NCBI RefSeq assembly: GCF_000380505.1
Contig: NZ_AQYH01000016.1
Location: forward strand, 1-64,000
Reading direction: 5' to 3'
Length of the DNA: 64,000 nt
From: Kaistia granuli DSM 23481
GTDB taxonomy: Bacteria; Pseudomonadota; Alphaproteobacteria; Rhizobiales; Kaistiaceae
The notes under the pieces were generated by a model, which saw nothing but the letters and a program-made list of their open reading frames with translations, was not told the origin of the DNA and did no database searches. Shown here one piece after another: positions 52,981 through 64,000 of this stretch. How positions within the stretch are numbered: position 1 is the first letter of the stretch; each line of letters begins with the position of its first letter. The position numbers and the translations under genes are program-made.

Positions 52981-53082
52981 CGTCATCCCCGCGCAGGCGG
53001 GGATCCATGCAGCCGAAGCACTGGGAGGCCCGCACCCCCGGGAAACCCGGCTGCTGGATCCCGGGTCAAGCTCGGGATGACG
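52981..53082. repeat. Palindromic intergenic repeat (CGTCATCCC type)
   Basis: A 102-bp element bounded by CGTCATCCC (52981-52989) and its inverse GGGATGACG (53074-53082), with an internal GGGGATCC...GGATCCCGGG pair. It fills much of the 283-bp gap between galM and the URC1 gene, which holds no gene. A half copy occurs at 62691-62717. Such elements are common, non-coding and transcribed as hairpins. Confidence 0.7.
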
Positions 53083-56099: not shown

Positions 56100-57059
56100 G
56101 TGGCCAAGAAGCTCATTCTCGACGTCGACACCGGAACCGACGACGCCGTCGCCATCATGCTGGCGGCGCTGCATCCGGAAATCGAGCTGGTCGGCGTCAC
56201 CACCGTCAACGGCAATGTCGAGGTCAAGTTCTGCACCGACAACACGCTGCGCGTGCTCGACCATATCGGCCGTTCCGACATTCCGGTCTATGAGGGCTCG
56301 AACCGCCCCCTCGTGCGCGACAATTTCCCGGTGGCGCGTGGCGTCACCGACCAGGCGTCGAAATTCCATGTCGAGACGCTGCCGGTGCCGGCGGCGAAGT
56401 CGAAGAAGGCCGCCAAGGGCGCCGTCGACTACCTGGTCGAGACCTATCGCAATGCCAAGGATCCGATCGCGCTGATGCCGGTCGGACCGCTCACCAACAT
56501 CGCGGCAGCGCTCGCCGCCGATCCGGATTTCGCCAGGCGCGTGCCGGAGCTGATCATCATGGGCGGCGGCCACGAGATCGGCAACATGACGCCCTCGGCC
56601 GAGTTCAACATCTGGGCCGATCCGGAAGCGGCGGCCCGCGTGCTGAACGCCGGCTTCGAGAAGGTGACGCTGGTGACGCTCGACGCGACGCACCGGGCGC
56701 TGGTTTCCTATGCCGATTGCGACCGTCTCGCCGCGCTCGGCACGCCCGCCGGCCAGGCGACGTCGGACATCGTCCGCTTCCGCATCGAGATGCACGACAT
56801 CGCCCAGAAGATGGATGTGCTCGGCACGGCGCCGGTGCATGACGCCGTCTGCGTCGCCTATCTGGTCGATCCCGCGATCCTGACGACGCGCCGCCATCAC
56901 GTCGACGTCGAGACGGGTGGCGCGCTGACCGTCGGCCGCACGGTGATCGACACGCATTTCCGCGGCAACCGAGAGCCCAATGCCGATGTCGCCTTCGACG
57001 CGGATCCCAAGCGCTTTGTCGACATGCTGGCCGAGATTTTCGCCCGCCCGCATGGCTAG
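56100..57059 (+). CDS. Inosine/uridine-preferring nucleoside hydrolase
   Basis: A 319-residue nucleoside N-ribohydrolase releasing a base and ribose. The calcium-binding signature ILDVDTGTDDAVAIMLA is at residues 6-22, followed by VGVTTVNGNV, LMPVGPLTNIAAAL, IIMGGG and, near the C-terminus, the active-site His in VHDAVCVAYL. The start is decided by GGAG at 56087-56090, nine bases before the GTG at 56100; an ATG at 56085 has no such site. Together with deoB, add and upp it extends nucleoside salvage. Confidence 0.93.
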   Translation: MAKKLILDVDTGTDDAVAIMLAALHPEIELVGVTTVNGNVEVKFCTDNTLRVLDHIGRSDIPVYEGSNRPLVRDNFPVARGVTDQASKFHVETLPVPAAKSKKAAKGAVDYLVETYRNAKDPIALMPVGPLTNIAAALAADPDFARRVPELIIMGGGHEIGNMTPSAEFNIWADPEAAARVLNAGFEKVTLVTLDATHRALVSYADCDRLAALGTPAGQATSDIVRFRIEMHDIAQKMDVLGTAPVHDAVCVAYLVDPAILTTRRHHVDVETGGALTVGRTVIDTHFRGNREPNADVAFDADPKRFVDMLAEIFARPHG

Positions 57060-57092: not shown

Positions 57093-58763
57093 CTACCCCC
57101 GCCGCACCACCTTCTCCGATGGCACGTCAAAATGCTGGATGCCCTTCTTCGCCGCCTCGTCGAGCGCGTCCTCGTAGCCGGCATCGGCATAGCGCAGCAC
57201 GCCGAGCGAGGTGTCGTTGGTGAGCGCCCGCGCAAGCCGTTCGCCAGCGGCCGGTGTACCGTCGGCGACCAGCGTGACGCCGGCCGAGGTCATGTAGCCG
57301 GCATAGCCGCCGCCGCCCGAATGGACGGTGACGAGATCGGCGCCGGAGGCGGCAAGCGCCATGGCGTCGAGCAGCGGCCAGTCGGCGATGGCGTCGGAGC
57401 CGTCACGAAGGTTCTCCGTCATGATGTTGGGATGCGCCATCGCGCCGGCGTCGAGGTGGTCGCGGGAAAAGGCGATCGGGCCGGAGAGCGCGCCGGCCGC
57501 GACCATGTCGTTGACCGCGAGCGCCAGTTCGGTGCGCGCGCCGTGGCCGAGCCAGGCGATCCGCGCCGGCAGGCCCTCGAACGGCACGTTCTCGCGCGCC
57601 AGCCTTATCCAGTTGGTGACGATCGGGTTGTCGGGGAAGCGCTCCAGCACGAGATCGTCGATGCGGCGGATGTCTTCCGGGTCGTTTGAAAGCGCCATCC
57701 AGCGGAACGGCCCGATGGCGCGGGCAAACAGCGGCCGCAAATACGCCTCGGTGAAGATCGGGATGTCGAAGGCGTTCGCCACGCCGGCCTCGCGGGCCTG
57801 GGTGCGGATCAGATTGCCATTGTCGAACACGACCGAGCCATGGCGCCGGAAATCCAGCATGGCGCGGACATGCGGGACGATCGAGGCGCGCGACAGCGCC
57901 ATCAGCCTGGCCGGGTCGGACTGGCGCAGGGCCCGGACCTCGGCCAGCGGAAGGCCGGCCGGGACATAGCCATAGACAAGGTCATGCGCCGAGGTCTGGT
58001 CGGTGACGATATCGGGATAGATGCCGCGCCGGACAATCTCGGGATAGATCTCGGCGGCGTTGCCGACCAGGGCGACGGAGAGCGGCTCGCGATGATGGCG
58101 GGCGTGGGCAATCCGCTGCAGGGCGGTGTCGAGGTCGGGCGCGATCTCGTCGACATAGCCGATCGCCTTGCGCTTTTCCGCCCGCTCGGGATCGACGTCG
58201 ACGGTGAGGATGGCGGCGTTCGCCATGCGGCCGGCGAGCGGCTGCGAGCCGCCCATGCCGCCGAGCCCGGCGGTCAGGATGAAGCGGCCCCGCAGATCGC
58301 CGCCGAAATGCTTCTCGGCGATCCGCATGAAGATCTCGTAGGTGCCCTGGATGACGCCCTGGCTGCCGATATATTGCCAGGCGCCGGCCGTCAGCCCGCC
58401 CCAGCAGATCAGGCCTTTCTGCTCCAGCTCGTAGAAATATTCCGCCTTCGCCCATTGGCCGACGATGTTGCAGTTCGCCATGATGACGATGGGCGCCTGC
58501 ACCTGCGTGCGCAGCAGGCCGATCGGCTTGCCTGACTGGACGATGAGGGTCTGGTCCTCGTCCAAGGTTTTCAGCGCCTGGACGATGGCGTCATGCGCTG
58601 CCCAGTTGCGCGCCGCCTTGCCGAGGGCTGCGTAGACGATCAGGCTGTCCGGGTCCTCGCCGACCGAGAGCACGTTTTCGAGCAACCGCAGCAGGCCCTC
58701 CTGCCGCCAGCCCTTGCAGCGGAGCGTCGTGCCCGAGGTGACGGGATAGCGCGGGTTCCTCAT
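57093..58763 (-). CDS. Non-canonical urocanase family protein, probable thiourocanate hydratase
   Basis: A 556-residue urocanase-fold enzyme of normal length. The NAD-binding and fold hallmarks are kept: YIGSQGVIQGTYEIF (131-145), TAGLGGMGGSQPLAGRM (164-180), DQTSAHD (255-261) and SRDHLDAG. Many active-site stretches differ from HutU as I remember it: ICWVGLG, which carries the essential Cys (Cys410 in Pseudomonas putida), is IAWLGHG here (Ala403); HHGGGVGMGFS is HSGGGGYAGYM; DPLHGYLP is DLVYGYVP. No hutH, hutI or hutG is near. Its neighbours are a thiohydantoin-desulfurase-family protein, a carbamoylase and a hydantoinase, so hydration of thiourocanate is the most economical assignment. It is the last gene of the operon. 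Confidence 0.75.
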   Translation of the reverse strand: MRNPRYPVTSGTTLRCKGWRQEGLLRLLENVLSVGEDPDSLIVYAALGKAARNWAAHDAIVQALKTLDEDQTLIVQSGKPIGLLRTQVQAPIVIMANCNIVGQWAKAEYFYELEQKGLICWGGLTAGAWQYIGSQGVIQGTYEIFMRIAEKHFGGDLRGRFILTAGLGGMGGSQPLAGRMANAAILTVDVDPERAEKRKAIGYVDEIAPDLDTALQRIAHARHHREPLSVALVGNAAEIYPEIVRRGIYPDIVTDQTSAHDLVYGYVPAGLPLAEVRALRQSDPARLMALSRASIVPHVRAMLDFRRHGSVVFDNGNLIRTQAREAGVANAFDIPIFTEAYLRPLFARAIGPFRWMALSNDPEDIRRIDDLVLERFPDNPIVTNWIRLARENVPFEGLPARIAWLGHGARTELALAVNDMVAAGALSGPIAFSRDHLDAGAMAHPNIMTENLRDGSDAIADWPLLDAMALAASGADLVTVHSGGGGYAGYMTSAGVTLVADGTPAAGERLARALTNDTSLGVLRYADAGYEDALDEAAKKGIQHFDVPSEKVVRRG

Positions 58764-58776
58764 CACGTCTCGCCCT

Positions 58777-59913
58777 TCATTTCTTGCCCTTCCGCTTCTT
58801 CCTGGTCTCTTCCTCGAACACGTAGCGGGCGATCTCGATGCCCATCGCCGCCTCGACCGGCGGATAGACGGACGGATCGAGCACGCCGGCCGAGAGCGGG
58901 ATGATCGTCTTCGGCACATGCAGCACATGCACGTTCATGCCGACATGCAACTGGCCGACCGAGAGCGGCTCGCCGTCCTTGTCGAGCGTGGTGATGACAT
59001 CCGGGAAGGTGGCAATCCGTGTGCCGGCGGCGTCGTCGATCGCCATGTATTCGTTCATGACATGCAGCGTCGTCGCCTTGTCGCCGCTGCCGATCACCAC
59101 CGTGCCGATGTCGAAGGCGGCGTTGGTGTAGACAACGTCCTTGCGGGCGATGCGGCCGGAAACGGCGATCGCGCCGCCCGTCACCTTGCAGATCGCGTCG
59201 ATGACGGCGCTGCCGCCGCCCTTGCCGGGGCCCTTGCCCTCGGCGGCGAGGATCGCCTCGCCGAGCGCCAGCGCCATCGAGATGCCGCCGAGCGCGGCGT
59301 TCTTCCGCACATAGCTGGCGCGCACCGGATTGCGGGCCGAGGCGATGAAGCCGCCCGACATGTCGGAGGCGGTGCGCAGGATCGGCGAGATCTTGGCGGT
59401 GGCGCCGCGCACGGCCAGCTCGATATAGCGGTTGTCGGCGCGATTGCCGCCGACCGCGGTCTGGATCGTCGGCTCGGGCGAGGCGGCGAGGCCGATCGAG
59501 CCCATGTCGCCGGTCGGGTGGGCGCGGATGTCGCCGACGGCGTCGAGCACCTTGGTGCCGAGGATGGCCGAAGGCAGCCAGCCGTTCAGCGTCGAGGAAC
59601 GGCCGTTCTGGCCGACCATCAGCGCCGCCAGCGGCTCGCCAAGGGCTTCCTGCAACAGGCGCACCGCCTTGACGTAGTCGACGCCCTGCATCTCCCATCG
59701 CGTCGTGCCGGCCGGCGCGCCGATGGCGGCGGCGGTGGCAACCCAGTCGTCCTTCTCGAGCTCGTCAAGCGTGACCAGCTCGGGCCGGCCGATGCGCACG
59801 GCCGCGAGGCCCAGCATGCGGCCGTGATCGGCCCAGCCGCCGCCGCCCGCCGCGTAGACAGAACCGCCGCGAACGGCGGCTTCAACGTCCTTCTCGGTCA
59901 GGATGCGGCCCAT
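58777..59913 (-). CDS. DUF917/S-methyl-thiohydantoin desulfurase family protein
   Basis: A 378-residue DUF917 protein. The N-terminal GGSVYAAGGGGWADHGRMLGLAAVRIG and GQNGRSSTLNGWLPSAILG, and the later GGSAVIDAICKVTGG in substance, are typical of this family, which I recall being renamed S-Me-THD (S-methyl-thiohydantoin desulfurase). It would replace the sulfur of a (methyl)thiohydantoin by oxygen. The ATG at 59913 follows AAAGGAAC. It lies 13 bp upstream of the urocanase-like gene and 78 bp downstream of the carbamoylase gene. Hydrolysis of the thiohydantoin formed from thiourocanate is the inferred step. Confidence 0.8.
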   Translation of the reverse strand: MGRILTEKDVEAAVRGGSVYAAGGGGWADHGRMLGLAAVRIGRPELVTLDELEKDDWVATAAAIGAPAGTTRWEMQGVDYVKAVRLLQEALGEPLAALMVGQNGRSSTLNGWLPSAILGTKVLDAVGDIRAHPTGDMGSIGLAASPEPTIQTAVGGNRADNRYIELAVRGATAKISPILRTASDMSGGFIASARNPVRASYVRKNAALGGISMALALGEAILAAEGKGPGKGGGSAVIDAICKVTGGAIAVSGRIARKDVVYTNAAFDIGTVVIGSGDKATTLHVMNEYMAIDDAAGTRIATFPDVITTLDKDGEPLSVGQLHVGMNVHVLHVPKTIIPLSAGVLDPSVYPPVEAAMGIEIARYVFEEETRKKRKGKK

Positions 59914-59991
59914 GGCGGAAGTTCCTTTCGGGAGCGTTTCGAGCGAATTGGACACCGGGTCGCGGGCAAGAAACCGCGGCCCTTCCTGGTT

Positions 59992-61248
59992 CTAGGCGAG
60001 GGCCTTGTCGAGGCGGAGCACGGCTTCGTAGAGGACGGCGGCGCCGGCGGCGATCTCGCCTGGCTCCGACCATTCGTCCGGCGTGTGGCTGCGGCCGTCC
60101 TTCGAGGGAATGAAGATCATCGCCGAAGGGGCGATGCGCGAGAACCAGGCCATGTCGTGGCCGGCGCCCGACGCCATCCAGTGGGTCGTGAGGCCGAGCG
60201 CCCCGCTCGCATCCTCCAGCACGTCGAGCAGGCGGGGATCGGATAGCGCCGGCAAGGCGTCGGACAGGATGCGGAATTCGCTGATCCGCGTCGCCGTTCC
60301 GGACATCGCCCGCGTCAGCAGCGGGCGCAATTCCTCGACGAAGCCCTGCAGAAAGCCGCGCTCCTCGGCGCGCGCGTCGAGCAGCAGGGTGACCCGGCTC
60401 GGCACGACATTGGCGGCATTCGGCTCGATGCGGAATTCGCCGACGGTCGCGACGAAATGGCCATGGCCGGCGGCCGCGCGGCGGCGCGCATCCTTGGCGA
60501 TGACCGAGACGGCCGCGGCGGCGCCGACCAGCGCGTCCTGGCGCAGCGTCATTGGCGTCGTGCCGGCATGGTCGGCGCGTCCCTCGATGACGATCTCGAT
60601 CCGCGTGATGCCGGCGATCGCGGTGACGATGCCGATGTCGCGGCGTTCGTCCTGCAATACCGGCCCCTGCTCGATATGCATCTCGAGATAGGCGGCGATG
60701 TCGTCGCGCTTTGCCGTGTCGAGCTCGTCGACGTCGCCGCCCATGCGGTCGATCGCGGCGGCGAGAATTTCGCCGGTCGGCTCCGAACGGGTCAGCTGCT
60801 CTTCCGAAAGCTGGCCGGCAATGGCGCGGCTGCCGATGCAGGAGAGGCCGAAGATCGACACCTCCTCGGCCAGGCAGTCGATCACCTCGAAGGCATGATC
60901 AAGCTTCGCGCCGTGGCGCGTGAGGCTGCGGGCGACGGCGATCCCGGCCATCACGCCGGCCGTGCCGTCGAAGCGGCCGCCATCTGGCACGGTATCGCTG
61001 TGCGAGCCGATGACGATCGTCTTGGCGTCCTCGGTCCGGCCCTCGCGCCGGCCGATCAGATTGCCAGCGGTATCGATGCGGACGGCGAGCCCGGCGTCGC
61101 GCATGCGCTCGGCGACGAAGGCGCGACCTTCCAGGAACATCGGCGAGAAGGCGCGACGCGTCCAGGGCCGGTCGGCGTCGGTCAGCGCGGCGAGTGCCAT
61201 CAGATCGTCCCAGAGCCCGGTCTCGTCGATGGGCAGATTGGCGCGCAT
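59992..61248 (-). CDS. M20-family hydantoinase/carbamoylase (N-carbamoyl-L-amino acid amidohydrolase-like)
   Basis: A 418-residue binuclear zinc amidohydrolase of the AmaB/allantoate amidohydrolase group. The metal ligands are H83 and D94 in GSHSDTVPDGGRFDGTAGV, the Glu pair in CLAEEVSIFG, the His in EMHIEQGPVLQ and the C-terminal His in KDGRSHTPDEW; the dimerisation loop GRADHAGTTPM is present. Such enzymes release CO2 and ammonia from N-carbamoyl amino acids. In this operon the expected substrate is N-carbamoyl-L-glutamate. Its ATG lies 8 bp after the hydantoinase-like gene. Confidence 0.88.
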   Translation of the reverse strand: MRANLPIDETGLWDDLMALAALTDADRPWTRRAFSPMFLEGRAFVAERMRDAGLAVRIDTAGNLIGRREGRTEDAKTIVIGSHSDTVPDGGRFDGTAGVMAGIAVARSLTRHGAKLDHAFEVIDCLAEEVSIFGLSCIGSRAIAGQLSEEQLTRSEPTGEILAAAIDRMGGDVDELDTAKRDDIAAYLEMHIEQGPVLQDERRDIGIVTAIAGITRIEIVIEGRADHAGTTPMTLRQDALVGAAAAVSVIAKDARRRAAAGHGHFVATVGEFRIEPNAANVVPSRVTLLLDARAEERGFLQGFVEELRPLLTRAMSGTATRISEFRILSDALPALSDPRLLDVLEDASGALGLTTHWMASGAGHDMAWFSRIAPSAMIFIPSKDGRSHTPDEWSEPGEIAAGAAVLYEAVLRLDKALA

Positions 61249-61256
61249 GGTGCGGA

Positions 61257-62630
61257 TCAGTTTCCGATCGGCAGGGTGGCCGGCGGTCGCACGAACCGGC
61301 CCGATCCGGGTTCGGCCAGCACGTCGCGTCCGTCGAAGGCCAGTTTCCCGCGCAGGAACGTCGTGCTCACGCGCCAGGGGAGCTCGATGCCGTGATAGGG
61401 GCTCCAACCCACTACATTATGCCCACTCGCGCTGGCGTCATAGAGCAGCGGCTCCGGCGTCAACACGGCAATGTCGGCGTCCTTGCCGATTTCGAGCGCG
61501 CCCTTCTCGTGATCGATGCGGAAGTGCTTCGCCGGGTTCGCCGCCATCAGCCGGGCCGCCCAGGTCAGCGGGATGCCGCGCTCGAGCGCGCCCTTGACGA
61601 AGAGGGGCAGCATCACCTCGAGTCCCGGCACGCCGGAGGCATTGTCCAGCATGGCCGGCTTGGTCTTGCGGTCCTCCGACCACGAAACGTGATCGGTCGA
61701 GACCAGCGTGACATGGCCGAGGGTCACCTGCCGCCACAGCGCCTCGACCTCGGCGCGCGGCCGGATCGGCGGGTTGATTTTCGCCTTGCCGCCGAGGCGG
61801 CGGACGTCGTTCTCCTCGTCGAGCGTCAGATAGTGGATGCAGACCTCGACGGTTGCGGCAAATCCCTCGGCGCGGTAGCGCGCTGCGAGTTCGGGCCCGC
61901 GCGCCAGGGAAGAATGCACGACATGGGCCGGGCAACCCGTCAGCGCGCCGGTCTCGAAGATTTCGACATCGGCGAGAAGCTCCGTGATCGGCGGCCGTGA
62001 CAGGCCATGCGCGCGCCAGTCGGTGACGCCCGAGGCCCGGACACGGGCCATATGCGCATCGACCGCCTCGTGGATCTCGTTGTGGACGCCGGCGGTGAGC
62101 CCTGTCGGGGCGATGGCGGCGAAGCAATCGGCGAGCAGCGCCGGCGGAATGCGCGGAAAGCGTTTGGCGTCGGTGCCGAAGGTCGAGAATTTGAACGCGG
62201 CGACGCCGGCCGCCACCATTTCGGGAATGCGGGCCGGGCCCTCCTGCGGGTCGATCGTCCCATAGAGAGCATAGTCGACGCGCGCCTGCGGTGAGGCATG
62301 GGCGATCTTCCTCGCCACGGCCGCGGCGGAGCAGACGAGATTGCCCTCGTCATAGGGCATGTCGACGATGGTGGTGACGCCGCCGGCCGCCGCCGAGCGG
62401 GTCGACCAGAGGAAGTCCTCCTGGTCCTTCTGGCTCAGCGAATGTACCTGCGCGTCGATGGCGCCAGGCAGGATCAGCGCCTCGCCCAGCGCGTGCTTTT
62501 CGCGCGCTGCCGGAGCCTCGCCCTGGCCGATCAGGGCGATCTTGCCGTCGCGCACCGCGACGAAGCCGCCGGGGATGATCCGATCGGCGGTGACGACGGT
62601 TCCGGAGAGGACGAGATCGAAATCGCTCAT
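61257..62630 (-). CDS. Dihydropyrimidinase/hydantoinase-like amidohydrolase
   Basis: A 457-residue cyclic-amidohydrolase family enzyme. The metal site differs in one place: GAIDAQVHSLSQKDQED has Gln61 where hydantoinases have the first His of H-x-H; H63 remains. The carboxylated lysine is K147 in AAFKFSTFG, further His residues are in AGVHNEIHE and CPAHVVHSS, and the catalytic Asp in LVSTDHVSWSED. GAGGAAG precedes the ATG. It would open a hydantoin ring, here probably hydantoin-5-propionate, to the N-carbamoyl amino acid used by the next gene product. Confidence 0.85.
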   Translation of the reverse strand: MSDFDLVLSGTVVTADRIIPGGFVAVRDGKIALIGQGEAPAAREKHALGEALILPGAIDAQVHSLSQKDQEDFLWSTRSAAAGGVTTIVDMPYDEGNLVCSAAAVARKIAHASPQARVDYALYGTIDPQEGPARIPEMVAAGVAAFKFSTFGTDAKRFPRIPPALLADCFAAIAPTGLTAGVHNEIHEAVDAHMARVRASGVTDWRAHGLSRPPITELLADVEIFETGALTGCPAHVVHSSLARGPELAARYRAEGFAATVEVCIHYLTLDEENDVRRLGGKAKINPPIRPRAEVEALWRQVTLGHVTLVSTDHVSWSEDRKTKPAMLDNASGVPGLEVMLPLFVKGALERGIPLTWAARLMAANPAKHFRIDHEKGALEIGKDADIAVLTPEPLLYDASASGHNVVGWSPYHGIELPWRVSTTFLRGKLAFDGRDVLAEPGSGRFVRPPATLPIGN

Positions 62631-62690
62631 GGCTGCTTCCTCGGGTTCGGCGCCCCGGCGGGGGGCTGGGCCCATGAACACGGTCGACGT

Positions 62691-62717
62691 TGGATCCCGG
62701 CCTTCGCCGGGATGACG
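62691..62717. repeat. Half copy of the CGTCATCCC-type repeat
   Basis: TGGATCCCGG followed by CCGGGATGACGG matches the right half of the element at 52981-53082 and forms a small hairpin. It lies in the 112-bp gap between the permease and hydantoinase-like genes of the operon. Confidence 0.6.
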
Positions 62718-62742
62718 GCGGAGAATGACACGCGCGCCCGCC

Positions 62743-63501
62743 TCATCCCGTAACCTCCGCCAGCCGGCCCGTGCGCCGGGCGACGCGGCGTTCGAGGATC
62801 GCCAGGGCGTCATAGAGCAGTACGGCGAGCAGCGCGACGATGATGCCGCCCTGCAGGATGAAGGCGGTGTTGGAGGTGAGCAGGCCGGCGATGATCACCT
62901 CGCCGAGCCCCTTGGCGGCGACGGTCGAGCCGATCGTCGCCGTCCCCATGTTGATGACGACCGAAAGTCTTATGCCGGCGAGGATGACGGGCAGCGCCAG
63001 CGGCAGCTCGACGCGAAAGAGCTGCTGGTTCGGCGACAGGCCCATGCCGCGCGCCGCCTCGACGACATTGCCGGGCACTTCCTTCAAGCCGGTGATCGTG
63101 TTCTCGAAGATCGGCAGCAGCCCATAGAGCACAAGCGCGATCAGGGTCGGCTTGACGCCGAAGCCGACGACGGGAACCGCGAGGGCCAGCACGGCGACGG
63201 GCGGGAAAGTCTGGCCGATATTGACGAGGCTGCGCGACAGCGGCAGAAACTCCGCCCCCATCGGCCGGGTGACGAAGACCCCCATGACCAGCGCCAGCGC
63301 CGCGCCGATCAGGCTTGCCACCGCGACGAGGCCGAGATGGGCGAGCGTCAGGCTGAGCAGGCTCGACTGGGTGTAGATCGCCGGCGCGTTGTTTTCGGTG
63401 AAGGGCTTCAGGATCGGCTCGAACCATTCCGGCCTGAGAACGAGCGCCAGCAGCAGCGCCAGCGCCGCCAGACGGGCGACAGGACCGACAAGACGGCTCA
63501 T
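62743..63501 (-). CDS. OpuB/OpuC-type quaternary-amine ABC transporter permease
   Basis: A 252-residue permease of the glycine betaine/choline/carnitine class. It has about six membrane segments, and the coupling loop reads NVVEAARGMGLSPNQQLFRVELPLALPVILAGIR in substance (EAA motif) near residue 150. The preceding FLPLSRSLVNIGQTFPPVAVLALAVP is typical of OpuBB/OpuCB. There is no fused binding domain, unlike some ergothioneine transporters. It overlaps the ATPase gene by 4 bp. Uptake of a betaine such as ergothioneine fits the downstream enzymes. Confidence 0.92.
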   Translation of the reverse strand: MSRLVGPVARLAALALLLALVLRPEWFEPILKPFTENNAPAIYTQSSLLSLTLAHLGLVAVASLIGAALALVMGVFVTRPMGAEFLPLSRSLVNIGQTFPPVAVLALAVPVVGFGVKPTLIALVLYGLLPIFENTITGLKEVPGNVVEAARGMGLSPNQQLFRVELPLALPVILAGIRLSVVINMGTATIGSTVAAKGLGEVIIAGLLTSNTAFILQGGIIVALLAVLLYDALAILERRVARRTGRLAEVTG

Positions 63502-64000
63502 GCCGGGCCGCTCGCATGGGCGAGAAGGGATTGGAGCGAGATCTTTCCGCGCACCGTGCCGTCACCCGCCGTGACCGGCAGCGCGTCGCGTCGGTGCCAG
63601 AGCAGTTCGGAAAGCGCATCGCGCAGCGTCGCCGTTTCCAGGATTGGCGGTCCCTCGGCCGTGCCCGGTTCGACGATCGAGGCGACCGGGGAGAGCGACA
63701 GCAGACGGAACGGCCGATCGACGCCGTCGACCAGTTTTTCCACGAAGCCGGGGGCGGGGTTGGCGAGGATCTCGGCCGGCGGCGCATATTGCAGCAGCTT
63801 GCCGCCATCCATGACGGCGATCTTGTCGCCGAGATGGATCGCTTCCTCCATGTCGTGGGTGACGAGCACGACTGTGATTCCGAGCCGCTGCTGTACGGCG
63901 AGCAGGTCCTCCTGCGCCTTGGCGCGGATGATCGGGTCGAGCGCGCCGAAAGGTTCGTCCATCAATAGCAGGCCGGGTTCGGCGGCGAGGGCGCGGGCGA
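63498..64000 (-). CDS. OpuCA-type ABC transporter ATPase, 5' part cut off by the window
   Basis: Only the C-terminal 167 codons are in the window; the frame runs open to the right edge. Visible are the end of the signature helix (RALAAEPG), Walker B LLLMDEPFGALDP, the H-loop VVLVTHDMEEAIHLGDKIAVM, and a C-terminal CBS-like domain (TLRDALSELLWHRRDALPVT .. VRGKISLQSLL). DEPFGALDP and the CBS tail are characteristic of the OpuAA/OpuCA/ProV class for quaternary amines. It energises the permease encoded by the overlapping next gene. Confidence 0.92.
   Translation of the reverse strand, partial: ARALAAEPGLLLMDEPFGALDPIIRAKAQEDLLAVQQRLGITVVLVTHDMEEAIHLGDKIAVMDGGKLLQYAPPAEILANPAPGFVEKLVDGVDRPFRLLSLSPVASIVEPGTAEGPPILETATLRDALSELLWHRRDALPVTAGDGTVRGKISLQSLLAHASGPA

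Follow-up and report, generated by a model that had tools for sequence, protein, structure and literature searches.

We analyzed the first 64,000 bases (the window) of the 95,155-base contig NZ_AQYH01000016.1 from Kaistia granuli DSM 23481, which end within an operon that, judging from its sequence, very probably directs the catabolism of ergothioneine, an antioxidant of mushrooms, by enzymes acting on ergothioneine itself. The initial annotation had described six tightly spaced genes of one strand at 57093-64000 and had expected that a lyase of the ergothionase type would lie further to the right, together with a betaine-binding protein. All six minus-strand genes were confirmed with the families and order that it gave, at spacings from a 4-base overlap to 112 bases. 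Past the window, the operon continues on the same strand with the remainder of an ATPase gene, another permease gene, and the two anticipated genes, which encode an OsmF-type binding protein (contig 65839-66750) and a lyase, termed ErtA (contig 66814-68400). The nine genes are ordered in the direction of transcription as ErtA, binding protein, permease, ATPase, permease, ErtD, ErtE, ErtC, and ErtB, with distances ranging from 4-base overlaps to 215-base gaps; gene starts reflect our choice of codon. From the spacing and the conserved order we infer that they form a single transcript.

According to the proposed route, a four-part OsmF-type ATP-binding cassette (ABC) importer would bring the betaine ergothioneine into the cell, where ErtA, a putative ergothionase, would eliminate trimethylamine to give thiourocanate. 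ErtB would hydrate thiourocanate to thiohydantoin propionate, ErtC would remove the sulfur to yield hydantoin-5-propionate, ErtD would open the ring to N-carbamoyl-L-glutamate, and ErtE would convert this product to glutamate, ammonia, and CO2. The cell would thereby gain carbon and two of the three nitrogens, and the trimethylamine would be lost or consumed by another route. Oxidation of trimethylamine by a flavin monooxygenase (FMO) was considered and rejected, because no FMO-like match was found in the genome in a search confined to this one trimethylamine route. Beliaeva, Leisinger, and Seebeck reportedly described in 2021 a five-step bacterial ergothioneine catabolism that was reconstituted in vitro, and since that pathway has been published, the kind of system is already known. 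All five of its enzyme families are represented in K. granuli, four by curated equivalogs and one by shared residues. The K. granuli operon differs in that its lyase belongs to a clade far from the Treponema denticola ergothionase (26.6% identity) and in that it also holds the importer. New here are the host, a lyase clade for which NCBIfam has no model name, and the link, through gene order, between the pathway and an OsmF-type importer.

The initial annotation had matched four of the five steps to gene families. All four of these enzymes scored above the cut-offs of NCBIfam equivalog models, on whose curation by NCBI their labels depend, and the lyase now supplies the fifth step. ErtB (57093-58763), the last gene product of the operon and a member of the urocanase family, scored 1041.8 bits with the thiourocanate hydratase model NF058530 (cut-off 930). 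ErtC (58777-59913), of the DUF917/S-Me-THD family, scored 578 bits with the thiohydantoin desulfurase model NF058529 (cut-off 440). ErtE (59992-61248), a predicted N-carbamoyl-L-glutamate amidohydrolase of the M20 family, reached 593.3 bits with NF058540 (cut-off 520) and was also above two broader hydrolase models, NF009531 (570.1 vs 486) and TIGR01879 (359.3 vs 204). The hydantoinase-like ErtD (61257-62630), a predicted hydantoin-5-propionate amidohydrolase, reached 769.2 bits with NF058538 (cut-off 600). Dedicated NCBIfam models also exist for an S-methyl hydratase and an S-methyl desulfurase, and ErtB and ErtC match them, which would fit a route that starts from S-methyl-ergothioneine or from some other S-methylated imidazole. 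However, both scores fall below the cut-offs (759.3 vs 880 for NF058531; 279.1 vs 450 for NF058532), whereas the non-methyl models are passed; we therefore ranked this route low and consider it very improbable. The use of allantoin or pyrimidines was likewise rejected or ranked low on the basis of model scores and gene content, in the case of ErtD among the 25 of 43 model matches listed.

The desulfurase also bears on a different substrate, ergothioneine sulfonate, from which the lyase would produce a sulfonated urocanate, with loss of sulfite. Ergothionase also accepts ergothioneine sulfonate, and a bacterial route for this compound is said to have been published for Agrobacterium radiobacter, which belongs to the Hyphomicrobiales like Kaistia. 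Nevertheless, the operon has kept a desulfurase that scores over the thiohydantoin desulfurase cut-off, and a sulfonate route should presumably have no need of one. We thus regard the sulfonate as an improbable substrate.

A separate observation concerns the metal-binding HxH motif of hydantoinases. A Gln replaces the first His of this motif in 74 of 74 ErtD sequences compared (the window protein and orthologues from 73 loci within L051-L130; 76 loci there match ErtD, and three short matches were excluded), and a single control dihydropyrimidinase (L149) has His at the same position. The metal centre of ErtD may be altered.

ErtA has the fold of histidine ammonia-lyase and lacks, in its loop, the Ala-Ser-Gly triad that forms the 4-methylideneimidazole-5-one (MIO) group, a combination that marks ergothionases; both the triad and a score over the hutH cut-off, which together define HutH, are missing. 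In NCBIfam, ErtA matched hutH-like models and models of further lyases, in each case with a score far under the cut-off (182.7 vs 539.15 for hutH). We aligned 72 lyases, comprising the K. granuli protein and those from 71 loci. The loop reads G-x-A-D in 70 of them and G-x-G-D in one, with the row of locus L093 out of register, whereas four relatives that possess the triad read G-A-S-G-D at this position. An Ala-Ser-Gly-Asp string occurs somewhere in the reading frame of one of the 72 lyases and in none at this loop. Four positions are identical in all 72 lyases and in the T. denticola ergothionase (PDB 6s7j/6s7q) but differ in all four triad-containing relatives: the N of S-N-A, the L of D-P-L-S, the first D of D-D-N-P, and the K of F-G-x-x-x-K. 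L048 and L050, two further relatives that lack the triad and were excluded from this count, have the Leu in common and not the other three. The N, L, D, and K positions may have catalytic significance. The T. denticola enzyme thus resembles ErtA in fold, in the missing triad, and in these four residues, and the two also have a loop one residue shorter than that of histidine ammonia-lyase; the low identity between them and the placement of ErtA on a separate deep branch set them apart. Locus L093 also has two separate ErtD matches, and its ert genes may be broken or the record misread.

ErtA was also compared with solved structures. A profile built from 14 ErtA relatives placed ergothionase 6s7j first, at 247 bits vs 207 for the best histidine ammonia-lyase, which reverses the order obtained with the single sequence, where a histidine ammonia-lyase (136 bits) preceded the T. 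denticola ergothionase (127 bits). The predicted structure of a relative from K. defluvii, with a mean predicted local distance difference test (pLDDT) value of 84.6, gave template modelling scores (TM-scores) of 0.86-0.88 to the 6s7j chains and of at most 0.83 to histidine ammonia-lyases among the 50 matches listed. Several results argue against the assignment, the single-sequence ranking among them. NCBIfam returned no ergothionase model for ErtA, the best Foldseek E-value belonged to a histidine ammonia-lyase, and the loop region of the predicted structure is of low confidence. In a 20-row tree the ErtA sequences formed a single clade with full support, set off by a very long branch, and the T. 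denticola ergothionase fell outside it, in a position that is unsure given the long branches. Taken together, the sequence features make ErtA a probable ergothionase whose clade is distinct from the T. denticola enzyme, the one characterised ergothionase in the comparison; others are those of Burkholderia HME13 and A. radiobacter. An ergothionase-like lyase, on whose presence in the genome the initial annotation had depended, therefore exists at the level of sequence, and the traits by which it resembles ergothionase rather than histidine ammonia-lyase support that annotation's view of the operon.

The same features can be set against a variant histidine utilization (hut) pathway, in which the lyase would act on histidine and the urocanase on urocanate. 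Such a pathway would account for the lyase and urocanase families, and ErtB passes the hutU model TIGR01228 (703.9 bits, cut-off 375), a result that does not favour ergothioneine. However, the loop of the lyase is without Ala-Ser-Gly and its hutH score is far too low, the hydratase scores much higher with the thiourocanate model, and the hut pathway has no role for a desulfurase, a hydantoinase, or a carbamoylase. The whole genome has a single member of the urocanase Pfam family by this search (ErtB) and a single match to the aromatic-amino-acid-lyase family (ErtA). Because both lie in this operon, the hut pathway does not explain the gene set, as had been claimed at the outset from the lack of hut genes, and we find it scarcely credible here.

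A lyase uncharacterised to date lies near ErtB and ErtC homologues on a Burkholderia arboris plasmid (L150, 16286-17722). Its identity is 36.7% with the T. denticola ergothionase and 29.9% with Kaistia ErtA; it carries the four N, L, D, and K positions and is intermediate between the two enzymes.

We assessed the co-occurrence of the ert genes in 61 genomes, namely that of K. granuli and 60 relatives. The desulfurase was over its cut-off in 10 of them, and six more had weaker relatives below it. The lyase was sought in 17 genomes, the 10 desulfurase-positive ones and seven of the same genus without an over-cut-off desulfurase. It was present in all 10 of the former, at 45-100% identity (G006 has only a fragment, and the match in G010 spans one reported TGA), and in none of the latter, two of which had only relatives of 26-29% identity. 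The full nine-gene order was found in K. granuli, in four more Kaistia genomes (G002, G009, G010, and G011), and in G032, which belongs to a different family. Genome G049 has ertADECB without the importer, the lyase of G025 lies about 93 kilobases (kb) away, and the operon is interrupted by contig ends in G006 and G012.

A contig scan provided a second sample, the best 80 of 456 desulfurase relatives, each with 10 kb flanks. The lyase was detected at 71 of these 80 loci, ErtD at 76, ErtE at 79, ErtB at 78, and the binding protein at 7. Lyase-bearing loci occur in Rhizobium, Sinorhizobium/Ensifer, Shinella, Devosia, Kaistia, and others. The two samples overlap, since L051-L054 correspond to G002, G010, G006, and G012, respectively. 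The 80 loci are an uneven sample of bacteria, since they were kept for their closeness to the K. granuli desulfurase and those with a name all come from Hyphomicrobiales. Four of the nine loci without a lyase are cut by contig ends (L053, L054, L057, and L069). The other five (L098, L115, L116, L122, and L130) have full flanks and speak against the proposed ergothioneine route, as do three plasmids. Paracoccus aminophilus pAMI4 (L146) and Thalassospira marina pCSC3H3 (L147) carry ErtD-E-C-B with no lyase within 12 kb, their chromosomes not having been searched, and a Microvirga ossetica plasmid has homologues of ErtC, ErtD, and ErtE with neither ErtB nor a lyase within 10 kb. Since the Kaistia operon, unlike these lyase-less clusters, includes both a lyase and an importer of the betaine class, its predicted substrate is the intact betaine. 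In both L146 and L147 a TRAP (tripartite ATP-independent periplasmic) transporter is encoded a few genes downstream of ErtD-E-C-B, and L147 has a UbiD-family decarboxylase nearby; these two plasmid clusters may take up thiourocanate itself.

The four parts of the importer are encoded by separate genes for an OsmF-type binding protein, two permeases, and one ATPase. The first permease gene lies at contig 64433-65623. The ATPase gene (contig 63498-64436, of which 63498-64000 is in the window), with a probable TTG start, encodes a protein that over its whole length scored 293.1 bits with a ProV-type model, below the cut-off of 326.6. The second permease (62743-63501) scored 90.6 bits with PF00528, and its nearest NCBIfam models, all below cut-off, are those of glycine betaine and choline permeases. 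Ergothioneine would be the substrate if gene linkage is a guide. At 7 of the 80 loci (in Kaistia, Salinarimonas, Chthonobacter, Devosia, and a Hyphomicrobiales) the importer comes after ertA, and at six of these it directly precedes ErtD; L126, the remaining one, showed neither ErtD nor ErtE within the 10 kb flanks. On an Ochrobactrum quorumnocens plasmid the importer is divergent from ertADECB. We also compared the binding proteins of 13 Kaistia genomes, including K. granuli and leaving out G006. All six ert-positive genomes have this type, at 89-100% identity, whereas the seven without an over-cut-off desulfurase all have another one, at 61-65% identity.

These associations have to be weighed against a more conventional function, in which the enzymes act as named and the importer is an ordinary glycine betaine osmoprotectant system, ergothioneine entering by another transporter. 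The binding protein exceeds the cut-off of the OsmF glycine betaine model NF049931 (504.5 vs 400 bits), and the solved structures closest to it (350-464 bits) carry the names of binding proteins for glycine betaine or osmoprotectants. A system with a 73% identical binding protein, permeases, and an ATPase is present on pSymB of Sinorhizobium meliloti with no ert gene within 8 kb, the rest of that genome not having been searched, and most ert loci are without this importer. All of this favours osmoprotection, which would leave unexplained the recurrent position of the importer beside ertA and ErtD, its divergent arrangement in O. quorumnocens, and the way in which importer type tracks the ert genes in Kaistia. 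We consider an osmoprotectant role possible yet rather unlikely. The linkage favours transport of ergothioneine, which we hold to be probable, though it is the weakest link in our interpretation of the operon.

Sequence positions within the binding protein did not decide the matter. The ert-linked binding proteins can be told from the ert-free ones at 37 listed positions, but at most of these the ert-linked set is matched by two solved proteins of undefined ert linkage; the difference is therefore no proof of ergothioneine specificity, and the attempt to derive specificity in this way was dropped. The known ergothioneine importer of Firmicutes, EgtU, shares with the K. granuli system a binding protein of the betaine-type substrate-binding class. 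EgtU has its permease and binding domain fused and a binding pocket with G244 and a Tyr/Phe switch (PMC9732360). In contrast, the K. granuli binding protein and two permeases are encoded separately, and the solved structures nearest to the binding protein are labelled as those of glycine betaine or osmoprotectant binders; EgtUC structures are among its solved relatives at a greater distance (97-108 bits). Within the literature on OsmF and glycine betaine binding proteins that we searched, ergothioneine was mentioned only in PMC9732360, and our literature search found no paper containing the term "thiohydantoin desulfurase".

A 2026 article calls ergothionase limited to few genera, adds that divergent homologues could escape detection, and names A. 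radiobacter as one of the bacteria that have it (PMC13405746). The ErtA clade fits this caveat. Because A. radiobacter, a relative, is listed there, an enzyme that is already known may fall within the clade. Whether three propositions hold jointly is, in our estimate, an even question: that the OsmF-type importer is a dedicated alphaproteobacterial ergothioneine transporter unlike EgtU; that the lyase represents a second clade of ergothionases, a divergent one that is widespread among bacteria of soil and roots and is missed by searches with known enzymes; and that environmental breakdown of ergothioneine is far commoner than reported. If the lyases are active, bacteria of soil and roots would commonly feed on ergothioneine. 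The lyase gene could then receive a name of its own, and it would be worthwhile to test ergothioneine on those OsmF-type proteins that now bear a glycine betaine label.

No match to EgtD was found in the K. granuli genome, and none of 14 control genomes was over the cut-off of that model either; by this test there is thus no sign that the host synthesizes ergothioneine. The operon is flanked upstream by a divergent gene for an M17 aminopeptidase, which begins at contig 68565, and downstream by a convergent nucleoside hydrolase gene, which ends at 57059. A dispersed repeat occurs in two copies, at 52982-53006 (minus strand) and at 62692-62716 (plus strand), one of them with one mismatch to the pattern; the mean number of occurrences in 100 shuffles was 0.00, for a pattern itself derived from what the translations had already shown. 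The second copy falls within the operon, in the interval that separates the permease gene from that of ErtD.

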